NCBI RefSeq assembly: GCF_001187845.1
Contig: NZ_CP012160.1
Coordinates: forward strand, 930,001 to 994,000
DNA from: Octadecabacter temperatus
Lineage (GTDB): Bacteria; Pseudomonadota; Alphaproteobacteria; Rhodobacterales; Rhodobacteraceae
Direction: 5' to 3'
Length of the DNA stretch: 64,000 bases
Part shown: positions 9,996-17,892 of the stretch, piece after piece
Layout of the letters: each line of letters opens with the position of its first letter
Numbering within the stretch: the stretch's first letter is position 1
The notes under the pieces: generated by a model
What the model was told of the DNA's origin: nothing
The model's database searches: none
What the model saw: the letters and a program-made list of their open reading frames with translations, nothing else
Made by a program: the position numbers and the translations under genes

Positions 9996-10319
9996 ATGAT
10001 CCTATATGGCCTCCCGACCTGTTCTGACTGCAACCGTGCGCGCAAGGTTTTGGAGGAGGCGGGTCTTAACGTCGCCTTTCGTGATGTCCGTGCGGAGCCG
10101 ATGCTTGAGGCCGAATGGGCCGTGTTGCTGGCTGAGTTTGGCGATAACCTCGTGGATCGCAAATCCCTCGCGTTTCGCAATCTCAACGTGTGGATGAAAG
10201 AATCCGAGGCCGATGCGCAATTGGCCGACACACCAGCCGTTATGGCGCGCCCTGTGATAACGGATGGGACGAAATTCACGCTGGGGTGGGATGAAACGGT
10301 GAAGGGTGAGTGGCTGTAA
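9996..10319 (+). CDS. Spx/ArsC-family thioredoxin-fold protein
   Basis: 107 residues, beginning 'MILYGLPTCSDCNRARKVL' with a CxxC pair (C9, C12). The ArsC/Spx/YffB layout continues with 'RDVRAEPMLEAEW' and the conserved 'VMARPVITDG' near the end. Family members are glutathione- or thioredoxin-dependent arsenate reductases or redox regulators. YffB-like members have no proven arsenate activity, and no ars operon is present here, so the substrate is open. A second member starts 230 bases downstream. Confidence 0.85.
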   Translation: MILYGLPTCSDCNRARKVLEEAGLNVAFRDVRAEPMLEAEWAVLLAEFGDNLVDRKSLAFRNLNVWMKESEADAQLADTPAVMARPVITDGTKFTLGWDETVKGEWL

Positions 10320-10382: not shown

Positions 10383-10493
10383 ATGGAAAAGACATCACAA
10401 ACAGCCACTCCGTCCCCAATTTTTCCGCTCACTCCACAACAGGTGCGTGCGCTTTTGGGGAAATTAACCGAGCAACAACAACAACGGCAGTGA
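10383..10493 (+). CDS. Possible microprotein between two ArsC-like genes
   Basis: A 36-codon frame beginning ATG at 10383, with product ending 'VRALLGKLTEQQQQRQ'. It lies in the 227-base gap between the two ArsC-like genes. There is no clear ribosome site and no recognised family. It is listed because the gap is otherwise empty and the Gln-rich tail looks like a real C terminus. Overlapping longer frame 10310-10543 is less likely. Confidence 0.25.
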   Translation: MEKTSQTATPSPIFPLTPQQVRALLGKLTEQQQQRQ

Positions 10494-10546
10494 CATTCCT
10501 GCCCATGACCGACAGTATCCGCGCAACCATTTGCGGAGCCTGACAC

Positions 10547-10870
10547 ATGCGCTTTTTCTCTCTTAAATCTTGTGACACGTGTCGTAAGGCGCTGAAATCG
10601 CTTTCTGGTCACGATGTAACCATCATTGATGTGCGCAGCGATGGCGTAAGCCCAGCGGACCAAGCGGCGATGATTGCAGCGTTTGGGGCAGGGGTGTTGA
10701 ACACCCGCTCAACGACGTGGCGCAATTTGCCAGAAGACGAGCGCGCAAAAGACCCTGCGGAGTTGCTCGCGCAGCATCCAACGCTTATGAAACGACCAGT
10801 GATTGAATTGGACGGTGCGTGGTATCAGGGGTGGACCCCTGCCACAAAAGCCGCCGTAGGAGTAGAATAA
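10547..10870 (+). CDS. Second Spx/ArsC-family thioredoxin-fold protein
   Basis: 107 residues with the CxxC pair in 'SCDTCRKALKSL' and the family end motif 'TLMKRPVIELDGAWYQGW'. It is clearly paralogous in fold to the gene at 9996 but divergent in sequence. The stop TAA overlaps the start ATG of the next gene by one base, so this protein and the four-helix membrane protein are probably made together. An arsenate or disulfide reductase role is possible but unproven. Confidence 0.85.
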   Translation: MRFFSLKSCDTCRKALKSLSGHDVTIIDVRSDGVSPADQAAMIAAFGAGVLNTRSTTWRNLPEDERAKDPAELLAQHPTLMKRPVIELDGAWYQGWTPATKAAVGVE

Positions 10871-11235
10871 TGCGCAACGCAGCCGCCATTTTGGGCATCA
10901 TCGCGGGGATCATGGGCATCTTCATCGGGCTATTCGGCTGGGGCATGGTCGCGCTGGCAAACGAGGTGCCAGAGGCCAGCGAGTGGCTAACGTTCGAGAA
11001 CCCGAAGTTCATCCAATTCGCCAGCTTTGTAGCACCGATGTTGTGCATCGCAGGTGGCGCAATGGCCAAAGCGCGTGCGCTTTGGGGTGGGATTGCTTTG
11101 TTGATTGGTTGTGCGTTGTTTTTGGCGGCGTTCGGGTTCAACGGTTGGACGATGTTTCCGATTGGTTTCGCCGGCTTGGGCGGTATCCTAGCGATAGCCG
11201 CCGGTAAGCCGGACGAAGAAAAAGCGCACTTCTAG
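10870..11235 (+). CDS. Four-helix membrane protein, unknown
   Basis: 121 residues starting at the ATG that overlaps the preceding TAA. Four hydrophobic helices are evident: 'AAILGIIAGIMGIFIGLFGW', 'FIQFASFVAPMLCIAGGAMA', 'LWGGIALLIGCALFLAAFGF' and 'MFPIGFAGLGGILAIAAG'. The tail is short and charged. It is an inner-membrane protein of unknown role. The frame extends to 10819 but that start would overlap the ArsC-like gene by 52 bases. It converges on bufD with a four-base overlap of stop codons. Confidence 0.7.
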   Translation: MRNAAAILGIIAGIMGIFIGLFGWGMVALANEVPEASEWLTFENPKFIQFASFVAPMLCIAGGAMAKARALWGGIALLIGCALFLAAFGFNGWTMFPIGFAGLGGILAIAAGKPDEEKAHF

Positions 11236-11765
11236 CGATTGTTGGAAAGGAAACGGTCCACTGACAGTGGGCCTGCGCCTTTAAGAACAAGCGTCACAAG
11301 CACCACCATCCAGAACGCGCGTTGATCAAGGATCGCGCCCGTTGGTAAGCCGTCAAACCATTTGCCGAGAGTTTCGGTGTGCTCAATCCCGCCGTGGCCG
11401 TAGAGGTCTGTTAGGGACTGAACGGTCACAAAGCCTATCATACCCAATGCTGCGAAACGGGTGAATAGACCGATCACGATCAGCAAGGGTAGGATGTATT
11501 CTGCCAAGGTGCCAGCAACGACGACGGCCCAATGGAAGATCGACATTTGAGAAATGTCATAGCCTACGGCCTCCATCGCTTTTGGGAAGATTTGCGCGTA
11601 GCCGCCGACGCCGGGTGAGAAGGGTGTGCCGTCCCACTTGGTGTTCGCTGAGTTCCAGAAATAGAACAATAGGGTCGCGGCAAAGACGAAACGGGCCAGT
11701 GTCGGCAAGATTTTGTCGGCAGATTCGTTTAGGGCGTTTGAGATGCGGTCATACAATGCGATCAT
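11232..11765 (-). CDS. bufD: DoxX-family membrane protein of the bufferin operon
   Basis: 177 residues with four predicted membrane helices in DoxX order: 'ILPTLARFVFAATLLFYFWN', 'FHWAVVVAGTLAEYILPLLI', then 'FAALGMIGFVTVQSL' and 'AFWMVVLVTLVLKGAGPLSV'. DoxX proteins often accompany redox or metal systems. It is the last gene of the bufA-bufB-bufC-bufD order, 11 bases after bufC. Inference: it helps move electrons or quinones for peptide modification, or supports export. Its precise role is not established. Confidence 0.85.
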   Translation of the reverse strand: MIALYDRISNALNESADKILPTLARFVFAATLLFYFWNSANTKWDGTPFSPGVGGYAQIFPKAMEAVGYDISQMSIFHWAVVVAGTLAEYILPLLIVIGLFTRFAALGMIGFVTVQSLTDLYGHGGIEHTETLGKWFDGLPTGAILDQRAFWMVVLVTLVLKGAGPLSVDRFLSNNR

Positions 11766-11776
11766 GGTTCTTACTT

Positions 11777-12511
11777 TCAGGTATTTATGGAAATCAATGC
11801 GTTACGGGATAGGAGTAGGCCGAGGAGTGGGCCAAGGTCAAATCCCGCGCCGCCACTTTGCAAGGCTTTTCCTAAGGGCGCGCCGTTGATCAGGGCCGCT
11901 AGGACTGCCGATTGTTCTGGCATAAGCGCATCAACAGTCGGGTCAAATTCGGGGCGTGAGATCAGTGTCGGTTGCGCGACTTTGGCGATGTCGCCGCCAT
12001 GTGTGTTCGTCCACCAGATGGAATGGAGCGGGTATTCTGACACGATCAAATGCACCGATGGTGAGAACGTGAAGGTCACATTTGGCAGCGTGTCTGGCGC
12101 TATTTTTGCCAAAGCATCAGGTTCAATTGGGCTGGCGTCCGCTGCGTGATAGCTGTGGCGCAACGCCAATTCCAGCCGCGCCATATCCGGCAAATACGGG
12201 ACTGATTGCGCAGGGCCAAAGCTTGCCAAGAAGTCGGGCATATCTTCGCCGTAAAACATCATTACGGGGGACGTTGGCGGATGCGCACGCAGGTAGACCC
12301 CTGCCATCGCGCGGAAAAAATCATTCCCAACCAGCTTGTTCACGACTGGGAACGCGGTTTCCAACGCGTCGGTTAGGCTGACGGCCACGTTGTTGCGGTA
12401 AACGTCAAAGCGTTTGGTCGCGGGCACGCCGTCAGGGTTTTGCACACCATTTGGCGCATGTTTAGACGGGTCCAACAGTGCGGTACGGAAATCGGTTTGC
12501 GTGGTGATCAT
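11777..12511 (-). CDS. bufC: HvfC/BufC-type partner of the bufferin maturase (DUF2063)
   Basis: 244 residues. The N-terminal DUF2063 (HvfC/BufC) domain is clear: 'QTDFRTALLDPSKHAPNGV' through 'RFDVYRNNVAVSLTDALETAFP' and 'FFRAMAGVYLRAHPPTSPVM'. The rest (about 100-244) includes 'LPDMARLELALRHSYHAADA' and a compact C-terminal domain. Proteins of this family bind the precursor peptide and pair with the MNIO enzyme to modify cysteines. The start overlaps the bufB stop by four bases (ATGA), consistent with a stable BufB-BufC complex. Confidence 0.9.
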   Translation of the reverse strand: MITTQTDFRTALLDPSKHAPNGVQNPDGVPATKRFDVYRNNVAVSLTDALETAFPVVNKLVGNDFFRAMAGVYLRAHPPTSPVMMFYGEDMPDFLASFGPAQSVPYLPDMARLELALRHSYHAADASPIEPDALAKIAPDTLPNVTFTFSPSVHLIVSEYPLHSIWWTNTHGGDIAKVAQPTLISRPEFDPTVDALMPEQSAVLAALINGAPLGKALQSGGAGFDLGPLLGLLLSRNALISINT

Positions 12512-13356
12512 GCAACAACCGTTAGTGCGGTGTCCGCGCGTTTCGTTTCCTCAACCAGTACGGCCCATTCAGGAACATCCGTGTCCCATTCAATCAGCAA
12601 AGGTTTAGGGCCGGATTTCGCAAGGGTGTAGTCGAGCAATGCCCAAACAGGGTCCACCACTTCGGCACCGTGGCTGTCGATAAGCAATGGCGCACCAGTT
12701 TCATCTTCGTCCTCATCATGGCCGCCAAGGTGAATTTCACCAACAGCATCAAGCGGGCAAGCGTCTATGTAGCTTTGCGGCGAATAATCGAGGTTTGTGG
12801 CGGAAACAAAGACGTTATTCACGTCCAGCAACAGACCACAGCCCGTGCGGGCGACGATCTCGGCCAAGAAATCAGTCTCAGACATGTCGGATTCAGTAAA
12901 GGCCAGATAGCTGGATGGGTTTTCAAGCAGCATTTGGCGGCCAAGCGTGGATTGCACTTCGTCGATATGATCCGCCACGCGTTTTACGGTGGCCGCGGTG
13001 TAGGGCAGCGGCAGAAGATCATTCAAAAACGCGCTCTCGTGCGTGGACCACGCAAGGTGTTCGCTAAAGCTGGCGGGGTTTAGCCAGTCACACAGGGTTT
13101 TCAGCCGCGCGAGGTGGTCGGCGTCAAGGCGGCCTTCGCCACCGATGCTCAGACCGACGCCGTGGACGGAAAACGGAAATTTTTCAGAGAGATGGCGCAG
13201 TTGCGCGAGGGGGCGGCCACCCATCCCCATATAGTTTTCAGCATGAATTTCGAGCCAGCCGACGGGGCCTGCATCTTTCATGATGTCATTGAAATGTTGT
13301 GCTTTATATCCAACGCCGGGGGTGAAGGGCAGGGATGGTCTGGTAACGTCTAGCAT
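12508..13356 (-). CDS. bufB: MNIO (DUF692) iron enzyme, bufferin maturase
   Basis: 282 residues, a TIM-barrel multinuclear non-haem iron oxidase. Segments that carry the metal ligands are visible: 'ENYMG' (40-44), 'SVHGVGLS' (63-70), 'SEHL' (98-101), 'LLENPSS' (143-149), 'LLLDVNNVFVSA' (175-186), 'GEIHLGGHD' (206-214), 'IDSHG' (226-230) and 'IEWDTD' (255-260). Known members oxidise cysteine residues of a precursor peptide, for example to thiooxazole or oxazolone-thioamide groups. The adjacent bufA supplies four cysteines. A GGAGG site precedes the ATG at 13356. All expected His/Glu/Asp/Asn positions appear intact. Confidence 0.93.
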   Translation of the reverse strand: MLDVTRPSLPFTPGVGYKAQHFNDIMKDAGPVGWLEIHAENYMGMGGRPLAQLRHLSEKFPFSVHGVGLSIGGEGRLDADHLARLKTLCDWLNPASFSEHLAWSTHESAFLNDLLPLPYTAATVKRVADHIDEVQSTLGRQMLLENPSSYLAFTESDMSETDFLAEIVARTGCGLLLDVNNVFVSATNLDYSPQSYIDACPLDAVGEIHLGGHDEDEDETGAPLLIDSHGAEVVDPVWALLDYTLAKSGPKPLLIEWDTDVPEWAVLVEETKRADTALTVVA

Positions 13357-13377
13357 ATAGGCCTCCGGCAGTGGTGT

Positions 13378-13413
13378 GCGCCCAGCCTACACCAAAACTG
13401 GGAGGCTGGGCGC
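13378..13413 (-). promoter_or_regulatory. Strong hairpin between bufA and bufB
   Basis: Perfect 11-bp arms GCGCCCAGCCT and AGGCTGGGCGC surround a 14-base loop in the 74-base gap between bufA and bufB. On the coding (minus) strand no T-run follows, so it probably shields the bufA message from decay or causes partial termination, giving more precursor than enzyme. Confidence 0.6.
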
Positions 13414-13430
13414 ATTTTTCGTGAGGCAGC

Positions 13431-13733
13431 TTATGCTGGGATGTCACGGTCCAGTTCAGTCAGGGAACCGGAACGCTCTGGGGAGTCGCCCATAGCTTCG
13501 ATCATTGTGTCTTCACATGTGCCTGCTGGAACGAATGTCCATGCGTTGCCTTGGTAATCAACTGTGGATGTACCGGCGCATGTTGTGCCCGGGCCAGCTG
13601 CACAGTCGTTTTCGCCAGCAAGGGATACGCCGTAGCACTTTTCGTTTTCTTGTGCGTGTGCAGTTGTGGACAGGCCAGCGATTGCAGTTGCGACAGATGC
13701 TGCGAGTACGAGGGAGTTTGTTGTCTTGGACAT
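13431..13733 (-). CDS. bufA: Bufferin precursor peptide (BufA1 family, DUF2282)
   Basis: 100 residues. The signal peptide is about 1-27, with likely cleavage after 'TTAHA'. The mature part has four cysteines, C33, C44, C52 and C73, in the DUF2282 pattern ('[18 protein letters not shown]' ... 'CAG' ... 'VPAGTCE'). In known bufferins these cysteines are modified by the MNIO enzyme, and the secreted peptide buffers copper or other metals in the periplasm. Unusual here is the 27-residue tail after the last cysteine, which is acidic ('[11 protein letters not shown]'). Upstream, on the coding strand, TGTAAGGA occurs about 55 bases before the start and could be part of an ECF-type promoter, but this is weak. 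Confidence 0.92.
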
Positions 13734-13889
13734 GGTGTGAATTCCTGTTGGTTGGTTACAAGTAGTAGCGCGCCGTGATTGGCGACTTCCTTACACTAGA
13801 GCGCACCAACCTTAACGATCCACTCACAGGAGCGTGCATCGCGTGTGCGTTATCTCGTGTTAGACCGTATTCAGTCCTAAGTCATTGAA

Positions 13890-13922
13890 AATAAAAGACC
13901 CGACCGTTTTCACGGCCGGGTC
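13890..13922 (-). terminator. Rho-independent terminator of thrS
   Basis: On the minus strand the arms GACCCGGCCGT and ACGGTCGGGTC (one G-U pair) flank GAAA and are followed by TTTTAT. It lies 26 bases after the thrS stop. Confidence 0.8.
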
Positions 13923-13947
13923 TGTAACACTACTAAAGTGCGAAATG

Positions 13948-15894
13948 TTACAAAAGATCGGGTGGAGTAGCCGATTTTGACAGCTCTTCCGTGATCGAAT
14001 CCAAAGATGTTACAGAAGTTTGCTTTTCACCTAAGCGACGCACGGACACTGTGCGTTCCTCAACTTCACGCGCACCGCACGCGAGAATGATCGGAACCTT
14101 GCCAAGCGAGTGTTCGCGAACCTTGTAGTTGATCTTCTCGTTGCGGATGTCGGCTTCGGTGCGCACGCCTACGGCTTTCAAGGCAGCGACGACTTCGTGC
14201 ACGTAATCATCCGCGTCGCTGATGATAGATGCTACAACCACCTGACGCGGCGCAATCCAGAACGGCAGCTTACCTGCGTGTTCTTCGATCAGAATACCGA
14301 TAAAGCGCTCGAACGACCCAAGTGTCGCGCGGTGCAACATATAGGGCAGGTGCTTTTCGCCATCCGACCCGATGTAGGACGCGCCAAGGCGTTCTGGCAT
14401 GTTGCTATCCACCTGCAAGGTGCCGCACTGCCAATCACGGCCGATCGCATCGGTTAGCACGAACTCAAGTTTCGGGCCGTAGAATGCGCCTTCGCCTTCT
14501 TGGACTTCATAGTCATGGCCAGCAGCCTTACACGCTTCGCCCAATGCCGCCTCGAGTAGATCCCAAGTTTCCTCGGACCCGATCCGCTTTTCAGGGCGGG
14601 TGGACAGCTTGATCTTCCAGTTGCTGAATCCCAACTCTGTGTAGATTTGGGACAGGAAGTCGATGAAGCGTTCAGTTTCGGAGGCGATCTGATCTTCAGT
14701 ACAGAAAATGTGACCGTCATCTTGGGTAAAACCACGCACACGCATGATGCCGTGCAACGCGCCCGAAGGTTCATAACGGTTACAGGACCCGAATTCAGCC
14801 ATGCGCAGCGGCAGTTCGCGGTAAGACTTCATACCTTGGTTGAACACCTGAATATGACATGGGCAGTTCATCGGTTTTAGCGCGTTGATGGTCTTTTCGC
14901 GGGCATGGTCTTCGTCCACTTCGACGACAAACATGTTTTCCTGATAGGCTTCCCAGTGACCGGAAGCTTCCCAGAGTTTGCGGTTCACCACCTGCGGAGT
15001 GTTCACTTCCACATAGCCACCGCTCCGTTGCTTGCGGCGCATGTAGTCTTGCAGCTGGGTGTAGATCAGCCAGCCGTTCGCATGCCAGAACACCTGACCA
15101 GGGGCTTCTTCTTGCATGTGGAACAGGTCCATCTCGCGGCCCAGCTTGCGGTGGTCGCGTTTGGCCGCCTCTTCCAGCATATTCATATGCGCTTTGAGTT
15201 GCTCTTTGTTCTGGAACGCAACGCCATAGATACGCTGCAACATCGCGCGGTCACTGTCGCCACGCCAGTAGGCGCCCGCGATGGACATCAGTTTCCATGA
15301 ATCGCCCGGCACTTGGCCAGTGTTCTGCAGGTGCGGCCCACGGCAAAGGTCCTGCCATTCACCGTGCCAGTACATACGCAGGTCTTCGTTGCCCGGAATA
15401 CTTTCGATCAGCTCAACCTTATAGGGTTCGCCTTTGTCTCTATAATACTGGATCGCAACATCGCGTTCCCAGACTTCAGTGCGGACGGCGTCGCGCTTGT
15501 TGATGATTTCCTTCATCTTCTTCTCAATCACACCGAGGTCTTCGGGTGTGAAAGGGTCTTTGCGATCAAAGTCATAATACCAGCCGTCTTTAATAACAGG
15601 CCCGATTGTAACCTGCGTGTCAGGCCAAAGTTCCTGCACCGCGCGCGCCATGATGTGTGCGAGGTCGTGACGGATCAGTTCCAACGCAGGCTCTGCGTCT
15701 TTCATGGTGTTGATGGCAATGCTTGCATCCGCATCAATCGGCCACTGCATATCCCAGTGTTCACCGTTCACGGTTGCGGAAATGGCCTTCTTGGCCAGCG
15801 ATGACGCAATAGATGCTGCGACTTCAGCAGGGGTAACACCTGCATCGTATTCGCGTGAATTGCCGTCAGGAAATGTAAGGGAGATTTGGGCCAT
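13948..15894 (-). CDS. thrS: Threonyl-tRNA synthetase
   Basis: 648 residues, normal length. It charges tRNA-Thr in the cytosol. Domains in order are: TGS (1-60, '[19 protein letters not shown]'), the second additional/editing domain with '[18 protein letters not shown]', the class II catalytic core (about 240-540) with '[20 protein letters not shown]' containing the zinc cysteine and motif 2 '[19 protein letters not shown]', and the anticodon-binding domain from '[12 protein letters not shown]'. The ATG is preceded by GGAG. It stands alone, with its own terminator. Confidence 0.97.
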
Positions 15895-16035
15895 CTTTGG
15901 GCTCCTCGTCAGTTTGACGCCTACAAAGCGTCCGGTTGCGGGTTATGTGTTCAGTGTTGAAATGGCGATTTTGGGCGCATGGGTCAAGGTCTGATTGCCG
16001 CGAACTTCGCAAGGTGTCAGGGTGATACGAAATAA

Positions 16036-17148: not shown

Positions 17149-17892
17149 TTACATGGCCATTTTGAGGGCATCGCCCGTTTCGAGGTAAGATTTGAGAGAG
17201 GCCGCCAAACGTGCCCAGCCTTCCGCGAACCCTTCTTGGCCCGGTGACATGTCGTAGTGTTCAATCGTTAGTTGGCAGACCTCGCCTTGGGGTTCGATCA
17301 GGTAGACCATGTGGGATGATGGTGCGTCTGGGCCCAAGAACAGCGGTTCGAACGTCATGGCGATTTTCGATTTCGGATCGAGGGCGGTTGTTACTTGGCG
17401 CAGCATGGCTTCGCCGTGGGGCAAGATGAACGATGTGGTTTCCCCAACAGCCGCGTTGCCCTGCACGGTATTACAGGCAAAGTGATATCGCGCCATGTCA
17501 TCGGCTTGGGTGAGGGCGTCCCATAGGGCGTCTTGGGTGCAACGGATGAAGGTCTGCATCATGAAATCTGGTTTGCTCATACGGGTATCCTTTTCGAGTT
17601 TGGCTTTGAGGTCAGTCAGCGCCTTGGCTTGGGGCTGAAGAAAGGGCGCGACCCAGCGGTCCATGACCTCCTGCAAGGGAAGGGCGTTTAGGTAATGGTA
17701 TTTGAAGCGCCCCTGTTTGCGCGTGATGATGAGACCGGCGTCTTCCAGCAGCTTGAGGTGCTTCATGACGCCAAAGCGCGTCATCTCAAGGCTGGCTTCT
17801 AGGTCCGTCAGAGTTTGACCATCGCGAAGGCGCAGCGCATCGAGAAGTTTCTGGCGCGTTGGGTCTGCGAGGGCTTTGAAGATATGTTCCAT
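17149..17892 (-). CDS. ArsR-type HTH fused to SRPBCC (AHSA1-like) domain
   Basis: 247 residues. Residues 1-90 are an ArsR winged helix ('IFKALADPTRQKLLDALRLR', 'LEMTRFGVMKHLKLLEDAGL'). Residues about 107-243 are a START/AHSA1-like ligand-binding domain ('FIRCTQDALWDALTQADDMA' ... 'EGFAEGWARLAASLKSYLET'). No metal-binding CxC is present in the HTH, so this is a ligand-sensing rather than metal-sensing ArsR. It is probably autorepressing and regulates the downstream MAPEG gene. The ATG is at 17892, and a repeated 9-mer lies in the promoter region. Confidence 0.88.
   Translation of the reverse strand: MEHIFKALADPTRQKLLDALRLRDGQTLTDLEASLEMTRFGVMKHLKLLEDAGLIITRKQGRFKYHYLNALPLQEVMDRWVAPFLQPQAKALTDLKAKLEKDTRMSKPDFMMQTFIRCTQDALWDALTQADDMARYHFACNTVQGNAAVGETTSFILPHGEAMLRQVTTALDPKSKIAMTFEPLFLGPDAPSSHMVYLIEPQGEVCQLTIEHYDMSPGQEGFAEGWARLAASLKSYLETGDALKMAM

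Follow-up and report, generated by a model that had tools for sequence, protein, structure and literature searches.

The 64,000-nucleotide stretch analysed here (the window), from an Octadecabacter-like genome, carries a complete Buf1 bufferin operon, bufA-bufB-bufC-bufD, running on the minus strand from position 13733 to 11232. The operon itself is ordinary for its family, and its regulation is the variant: the sigma-factor site expected upstream of bufA is absent from the promoter, which carries a conserved double palindrome instead and so suggests a further regulator. A first-pass annotation had placed the four genes in complete order at these coordinates, where we found all of them, and profile scores confirmed the families, with every product exceeding its Pfam cut-off:

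bufA, 13431..13733, minus strand: Buf1 (DUF2282) bufferin precursor, 100 amino acids (PF10048, 83.6 bits, cut-off 22.4)
bufB, 12508..13356, minus strand: MNIO (DUF692) bufferin maturase, 282 amino acids (PF05114, 348 bits)
bufC, 11777..12511, minus strand: DUF2063 partner protein (PME type 1), 244 amino acids (PF09836, 93.7 bits, residues 4-95)
bufD, 11232..11765, minus strand: DoxX-family membrane protein, 177 amino acids (PF07681, 31.8 bits, cut-off 23.6)

The operon is flanked by thrS upstream and a convergent gene downstream, and bufB and bufC overlap by 4 nucleotides (ATGA, 12508-12511). According to PMC12452194 (papers are cited here by PMC accession), bufferins form large and widespread families of copper-stress peptides, and the Caulobacter vibrioides operon bufA1B1C1D1 (CC3254-CC3257) is built from the same four families, DUF2282, DUF692, DUF2063 and DoxX (PMC3511200). 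Because DUF2282 is present in 106 of the 149 family genomes (and in 16/19 genus and 84/240 class genomes), we regard the operon as an ordinary member of a well-known kind; this genome has one DUF2282 gene. The closest BufB relatives are mostly from Octadecabacter and Pseudooctadecabacter, the top one at 98%. Sequence comparison supports a fit to the Buf1 clusters as delimited in PMC12452194, save for the RRE-type half of BufC.

BufA carries four cysteines, Cys33, Cys44, Cys52 and Cys73, in the DUF2282 pattern that the first-pass annotation had pointed out, with matching spacing in 76/76 compared rows; by inspection, residues 1-27 or so form a Sec signal peptide with an n-region, a hydrophobic core and AHA|Q. 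BufB passes the NCBIfam model NF050167 'MNIO family bufferin maturase' (MNIO_BufB) at 371.8 bits (cut-off 310). All of the putative ligands checked, as anticipated from its motifs, are present: H65, H100, E145, D178, N180, N181, H209, D227, H229, E256 and D258 are invariant in 76/76 rows, in which one genome is counted twice, and sit in blocks aligned with the solved MNIO chains 3bww, 8hci and 7dz9. The iron ligands and the catalytic base are presumably among these residues. An Asp is named as the base in the MNIO enzyme studied in PMC12668002. At 244 amino acids, BufC is near the 250-260 usual for PME type 1 (PMC12452194). The captophorins/oxazolins (fontiphorin, HvfA) likewise use an MNIO and PME1 pair and bear copper-associated 5-thiooxazoles (PMC12668002), but they have EGKCG-repeat precursors, and the NCBIfam models HvfB, HvfC and HvfX all stayed below cut-off on the window's proteins. 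The GIG operons of Cupriavidus metallidurans and Legionella pneumophila are related and metal-induced (PMC5413113, PMC8224329); they belong to other bacterial classes and are likened to this operon by description only.

DUF2282 operons of C. crescentus are induced by copper (PMC8224329) and need the extracytoplasmic function (ECF) sigma factor SigF, which is held by NrsF and acts at a GTAACC-N16-CGAA promoter (PMC3511200). Sigma and NrsF genes are also reported in Buf1 clusters (PMC12452194), and section 6 of PMC12668002 mentions frequent co-occurrence with transcriptional regulators, which it leaves unnamed; in the sections of the bufferin literature cited here (PMC12452194, PMC12668002, PMC3511200, PMC8224329), SigF/NrsF is the only regulator named. 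None of these Caulobacter components was found here. Inspection of the gene neighbourhood with Pfam revealed no sigma/anti-sigma pair adjoining the operon, in agreement with the first-pass annotation, and NrsF (PF06532) has no match in this genome, which is 99.98% complete. A close SigF was not found either, a family-member SigF query giving two stretches of 29% and 27% identity, the best at 34.3 bits. The GTAACN-N16-CGWA promoter was not found at up to one mismatch in 16 upstream regions of 170 nucleotides each from the window plus its genus, and a sigma-70 scan of 11000-14100 gave no site upstream of bufA. Across the family, NrsF matches occur in 22/149 genomes, 21 of them above cut-off; among the 106 DUF2282 genomes, 16 have NrsF above cut-off and 90 do not, and therefore something else must control the operon in these. 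The earlier suggestion that regulation may differ here is thus borne out by what was found instead, a conserved double palindrome in the thrS-bufA gap, with a -10-like box downstream of it:

Terminator-like stem of thrS, 13896..13923, minus strand: stem of 12 pairs with a T-rich tail after it, separating bufA from thrS
Double palindrome TAACGCACACGCGATGCACGCTCCTGTGAGT, 13822..13852, minus strand: predicted regulator site, with palindrome 1 at 13839-13852 and palindrome 2 at 13824-13836
TAGTGT, 13793..13798, minus strand: -10-like box, 23 nucleotides after the element, with GGATCG in place of TTGACA at the -35 position

The family pattern of this element, TNACG-N4-CGTGA-NN-CACG-N4-CGTGA-NT, comprises two ACG-N4-CGT palindromes 15 bp apart, between the thrS terminator and bufA. 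The window's copy differs from it at 2 of 19 positions and is the sole match at up to two mismatches in this genome. Searching whole genomes with the 31-base pattern at up to 2/19 mismatches returned 68 rows in 61/149 genomes, and the reversed pattern returned 0. Sixty of these rows adjoin bufA (in 55 of the 106 DUF2282 genomes); the other 8 lie elsewhere and overlap long open reading frames (7 flagged by script, the one at L214 by coordinates) whose reality as genes is unchecked. A 24-base core, at up to 3/17 mismatches, was present in 52 of 76 bufA upstream regions, 16 of them from the window and its genus, versus 0.05 per shuffled set. In this genome the same core at up to three mismatches matched 12 places versus 8 for its reverse, with the bufA site as the only one below three. 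Among named relatives, 74 of 78 examined (80 in all, 78 examinable) had the element at up to 4/19 mismatches versus 0/78 shuffled, a share that is biased upward as these loci are the closest BufB relatives. As some of the loci in the tests had also served to derive the pattern, the whole-genome reversed control and the bufA-adjacent position weigh most. A limited literature search with several motif spellings, a weak test, found no paper on the element and none for DUF2282 with Roseobacter; DUF2282 with other genus names gave no such paper among the matches listed.

The element also keeps a fixed distance to the box. Of 140 distinct upstream regions, 116 carry it at up to four mismatches, and 84 of these 116 have TANNNT 22-23 nucleotides after it (70 at 23, 14 at 22), with at most three regions at any other distance from 5 to 44 nucleotides. 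If TAGTGT is the -10 box, the element would span roughly -66 to -36, and the promoter shows no -35 resembling TTGACA.

The double element and NrsF are mutually exclusive: none of the 16 NrsF-bearing DUF2282 genomes has it, and NrsF occurs in 0/55 element-bearing genomes versus 16/51 of the others (Fisher p 2e-6, shared ancestry uncorrected). A single palindrome, CACG-N4-CGTGA at up to one mismatch, was nevertheless present in 11/12 loci of the first NrsF-bearing set (0.47 in shuffles). Eight of these 12 loci also have a SigF-type promoter at up to one mismatch, 7 of them at none, and the palindrome ends 5-6 nucleotides before the SigF-type -35 in 7 of the 8, and 15 nucleotides before it in one. 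Four further NrsF-bearing loci (L216, L217, L218 and L219) have no palindrome, and a SigF-type site was found only in L216, the others having none at up to one mismatch; L215 was excluded for want of a usable bufA, and the start in L217 is doubtful. Over all 16 NrsF-bearing loci, the palindrome is thus present in 11 and a SigF-type site in 9, and both counts are 9 in the 12 loci with NrsF near bufA. The palindrome occurs in 38/48 NrsF-less loci (1.6 in shuffles). In more distant alphaproteobacteria it was found in 8/27 (0.6 in shuffles), two of them with a SigF site; in five others the SigF site stands alone. Tentatively, and with slightly less than even confidence, we propose that a dedicated regulator controls bufferins across much of the Rhodobacteraceae through the double ACG-N4-CGT palindrome, with a single copy plus SigF in many sigF-nrsF relatives, so that one copper-stress switch would have been rewired between sigma-factor and activator control. 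Our confidence in this rewiring was lowered because the four added NrsF-bearing loci lack the palindrome.

The operon could instead be under another ECF sigma factor encoded elsewhere, with the palindrome as a minor accessory, given that the C. crescentus DUF2282 operons are driven by SigF (PMC3511200, PMC8224329) and that this genome has further sigma-like stretches. We consider this improbable: a SigF-type promoter is present in none of 64 NrsF-less rows at zero mismatches and in one at one mismatch (48 rows from the family and 16 from the window plus genus, genome G145 counted twice), this genome is without NrsF and a close SigF, and the element is followed by a TAnnnT box and not by CGWA.

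It is more improbable still that the conserved DNA is a by-product of its neighbourhood, for example of the thrS 3' end or of a small RNA, and not a regulator site. Although thrS lies upstream in most element-bearing loci, the element (24-base pattern, 0-4 mismatches) also precedes bufA in L047, L048, L049 and L082, which have no thrS hit in the fetched stretch; its independence of thrS is qualified by three other thrS-less loci, L060, L061 and L070, in which it was not seen. The fixed distance between element and -10 box and the persistence of one palindrome in 11 of the 16 NrsF-bearing loci argue against a by-product as well, as does Rfam, which gave no match at gathering scores over 10400-16000.

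As to how a regulator bound at the double palindrome would act, the site ends before the -35 position, the -10 box is free and no -35 is recognisable, which suits an activator touching RNA polymerase. A metal-sensing repressor could also occupy -66 to -36 and leave at high copper, in which case the operon would be derepressed and not activated. Dimeric repressors suit palindromic tandem sites, the single palindrome lies just upstream of the SigF-type -35 in several NrsF-bearing relatives, and an ArsR-type gene is found near the operon; the ArsR family consists mostly of repressors. We nevertheless hold the repressor to be unlikely, about a one-in-four prospect, since the position of the site suits an activator better and the ArsR-type gene has a narrow distribution:

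ArsR-AHSA1 gene, 17149-17892, minus strand: upstream of thrS, 3.4 kb from bufA; 79% identical to that of L176

At E 1e-30, relatives of this gene occur in 22/149 family genomes. Three of these genomes lack DUF2282; in 16 of the remaining 19, the gene is at most 6 kb away from bufA. As a general owner of the element it was rejected, as only 11/55 element-bearing genomes have it and the 44 without it at this threshold include the genus member G145. It is thus part of the thrS neighbourhood, not a general regulator, and may have a role in this one genome. A TetR gene was also rejected: it was the only one among ten neighbour open reading frames examined around the operons of four more distant relatives, and it adjoins an operon without the palindrome.

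On the genes, residues, element and spacing read from the sequence, we consider it probable that the locus is a copper-buffering operon for a ribosomally synthesised and post-translationally modified peptide, with its own promoter and a putative regulator, not SigF, at the double palindrome, which most likely activates. Transcription would start from this promoter behind the thrS terminator, at the -10-like box and with neither a recognisable -35 nor a SigF site, and copper would be the presumed signal. BufA would be made with its signal peptide as a Buf1 precursor; in the cytoplasm, the iron enzyme BufB, guided by BufC, would turn Cys44 and Cys52 into copper-binding heterocycles (5-thiooxazoles), a chemistry proposed by analogy with PMC12452194 and PMC12668002. 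For another 5-thiooxazole enzyme, a mass loss of 8 Da over two sites, about 4 Da for each modified Cys, has been reported (PMC12668002). After export, Cys33 and Cys73 would form a disulfide, and the peptide would buffer excess periplasmic copper, with BufD assisting in a manner that the model does not specify. The element offers a 31-bp bait for its regulator, and the promoter map is testable in marine roseobacters.

Several observations weigh against this reading. The regulator was not found in the neighbourhoods searched: the fetched loci cover roughly 3-4 kb ahead of bufA or bufB, the neighbour open reading frames of 140 loci, with buf and thrS masked, gave 46 clusters present in at least 5 loci, and 20 of these 46 were scanned with Pfam. 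The DNA- or RNA-binding families in the 20 scanned clusters were the ArsR-AHSA1 protein, a cold-shock protein and an ECF sigma factor (in SigF loci), which, SigF aside, leaves the ArsR-AHSA1 protein as the sole recurring transcription factor near buf. No second gene in this genome has the double element at up to two mismatches, unlike a global regulon, and the single palindrome occurs in the window at chance (20 matches at up to one mismatch, 23 expected). Both NrsF and the element (at up to two mismatches) are missing from 35/106 DUF2282 genomes. Compared by sequence with solved chains, BufC gave no match up to E 1, leaving its RRE-type half unconfirmed.

For the thrS terminator-like stem, a scan yielded 6 such sites versus 3.6 in shuffles, so its position counts more than the match. 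Two further predicted RNA structures lie in the operon's leader and between its first two genes:

Predicted stem-loop opening the bufA leader, 13768..13786, minus strand: z -1.3 in the window, the signal being weak in individual sequences
Intergenic bufA-bufB hairpin, 13377..13414, minus strand: perfect 12-bp stem, no T run after it

With an approximate shuffler, the mean z of the leader stem-loop was -1.10 in 57 element-bearing leaders, 8 of which fell below -2, and -2.25 in 8 SigF-type leaders, 4 of which did. In the bufA-bufB hairpin, the seven inner stem pairs are kept in 15/15 aligned genus sequences (16 given, L102 left out), and both-side changes occur in 3/10 predicted pairs. Because few loci beyond the genus have z below -2 (11/48 NrsF-less and 0/12 NrsF-bearing), we do not claim this hairpin family-wide. 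It is probably an mRNA stabiliser or a processing end, and we infer that the two hairpins together may keep the level of precursor mRNA above that of the enzyme mRNA.

The C-terminal tail of BufA, GSLxxLxRDLP (13431-13500 in the window), matched by one regular expression, is found in 40/48 NrsF-less and 6/12 NrsF-bearing family loci and could be a recognition site for BufC. L053 and L090 have a tandem pair of bufA copies ahead of a single bufB. Records H1-H3, 1.2-1.6 Mb long and deposited as Tritonibacter and Pseudorhodobacter plasmids, carry BufB relatives with 67-78% identity, so bufB is not always chromosomal.

Downstream of the operon, a small protein with no Pfam match, predicted to be a membrane protein (10870-11235, plus strand), is encoded convergently with bufD, their ends overlapping by 4 nucleotides, and has relatives in 48/140 buf loci. 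Next to it lie two adjacent genes for ArsC-family (Spx/MgsR-like) small proteins (9996-10319 and 10547-10870, plus strand), both under the NCBIfam cut-offs; of the 140 buf loci, 106 contain a member of an ArsC-family cluster and 92 a member of a cold-shock-domain cluster.

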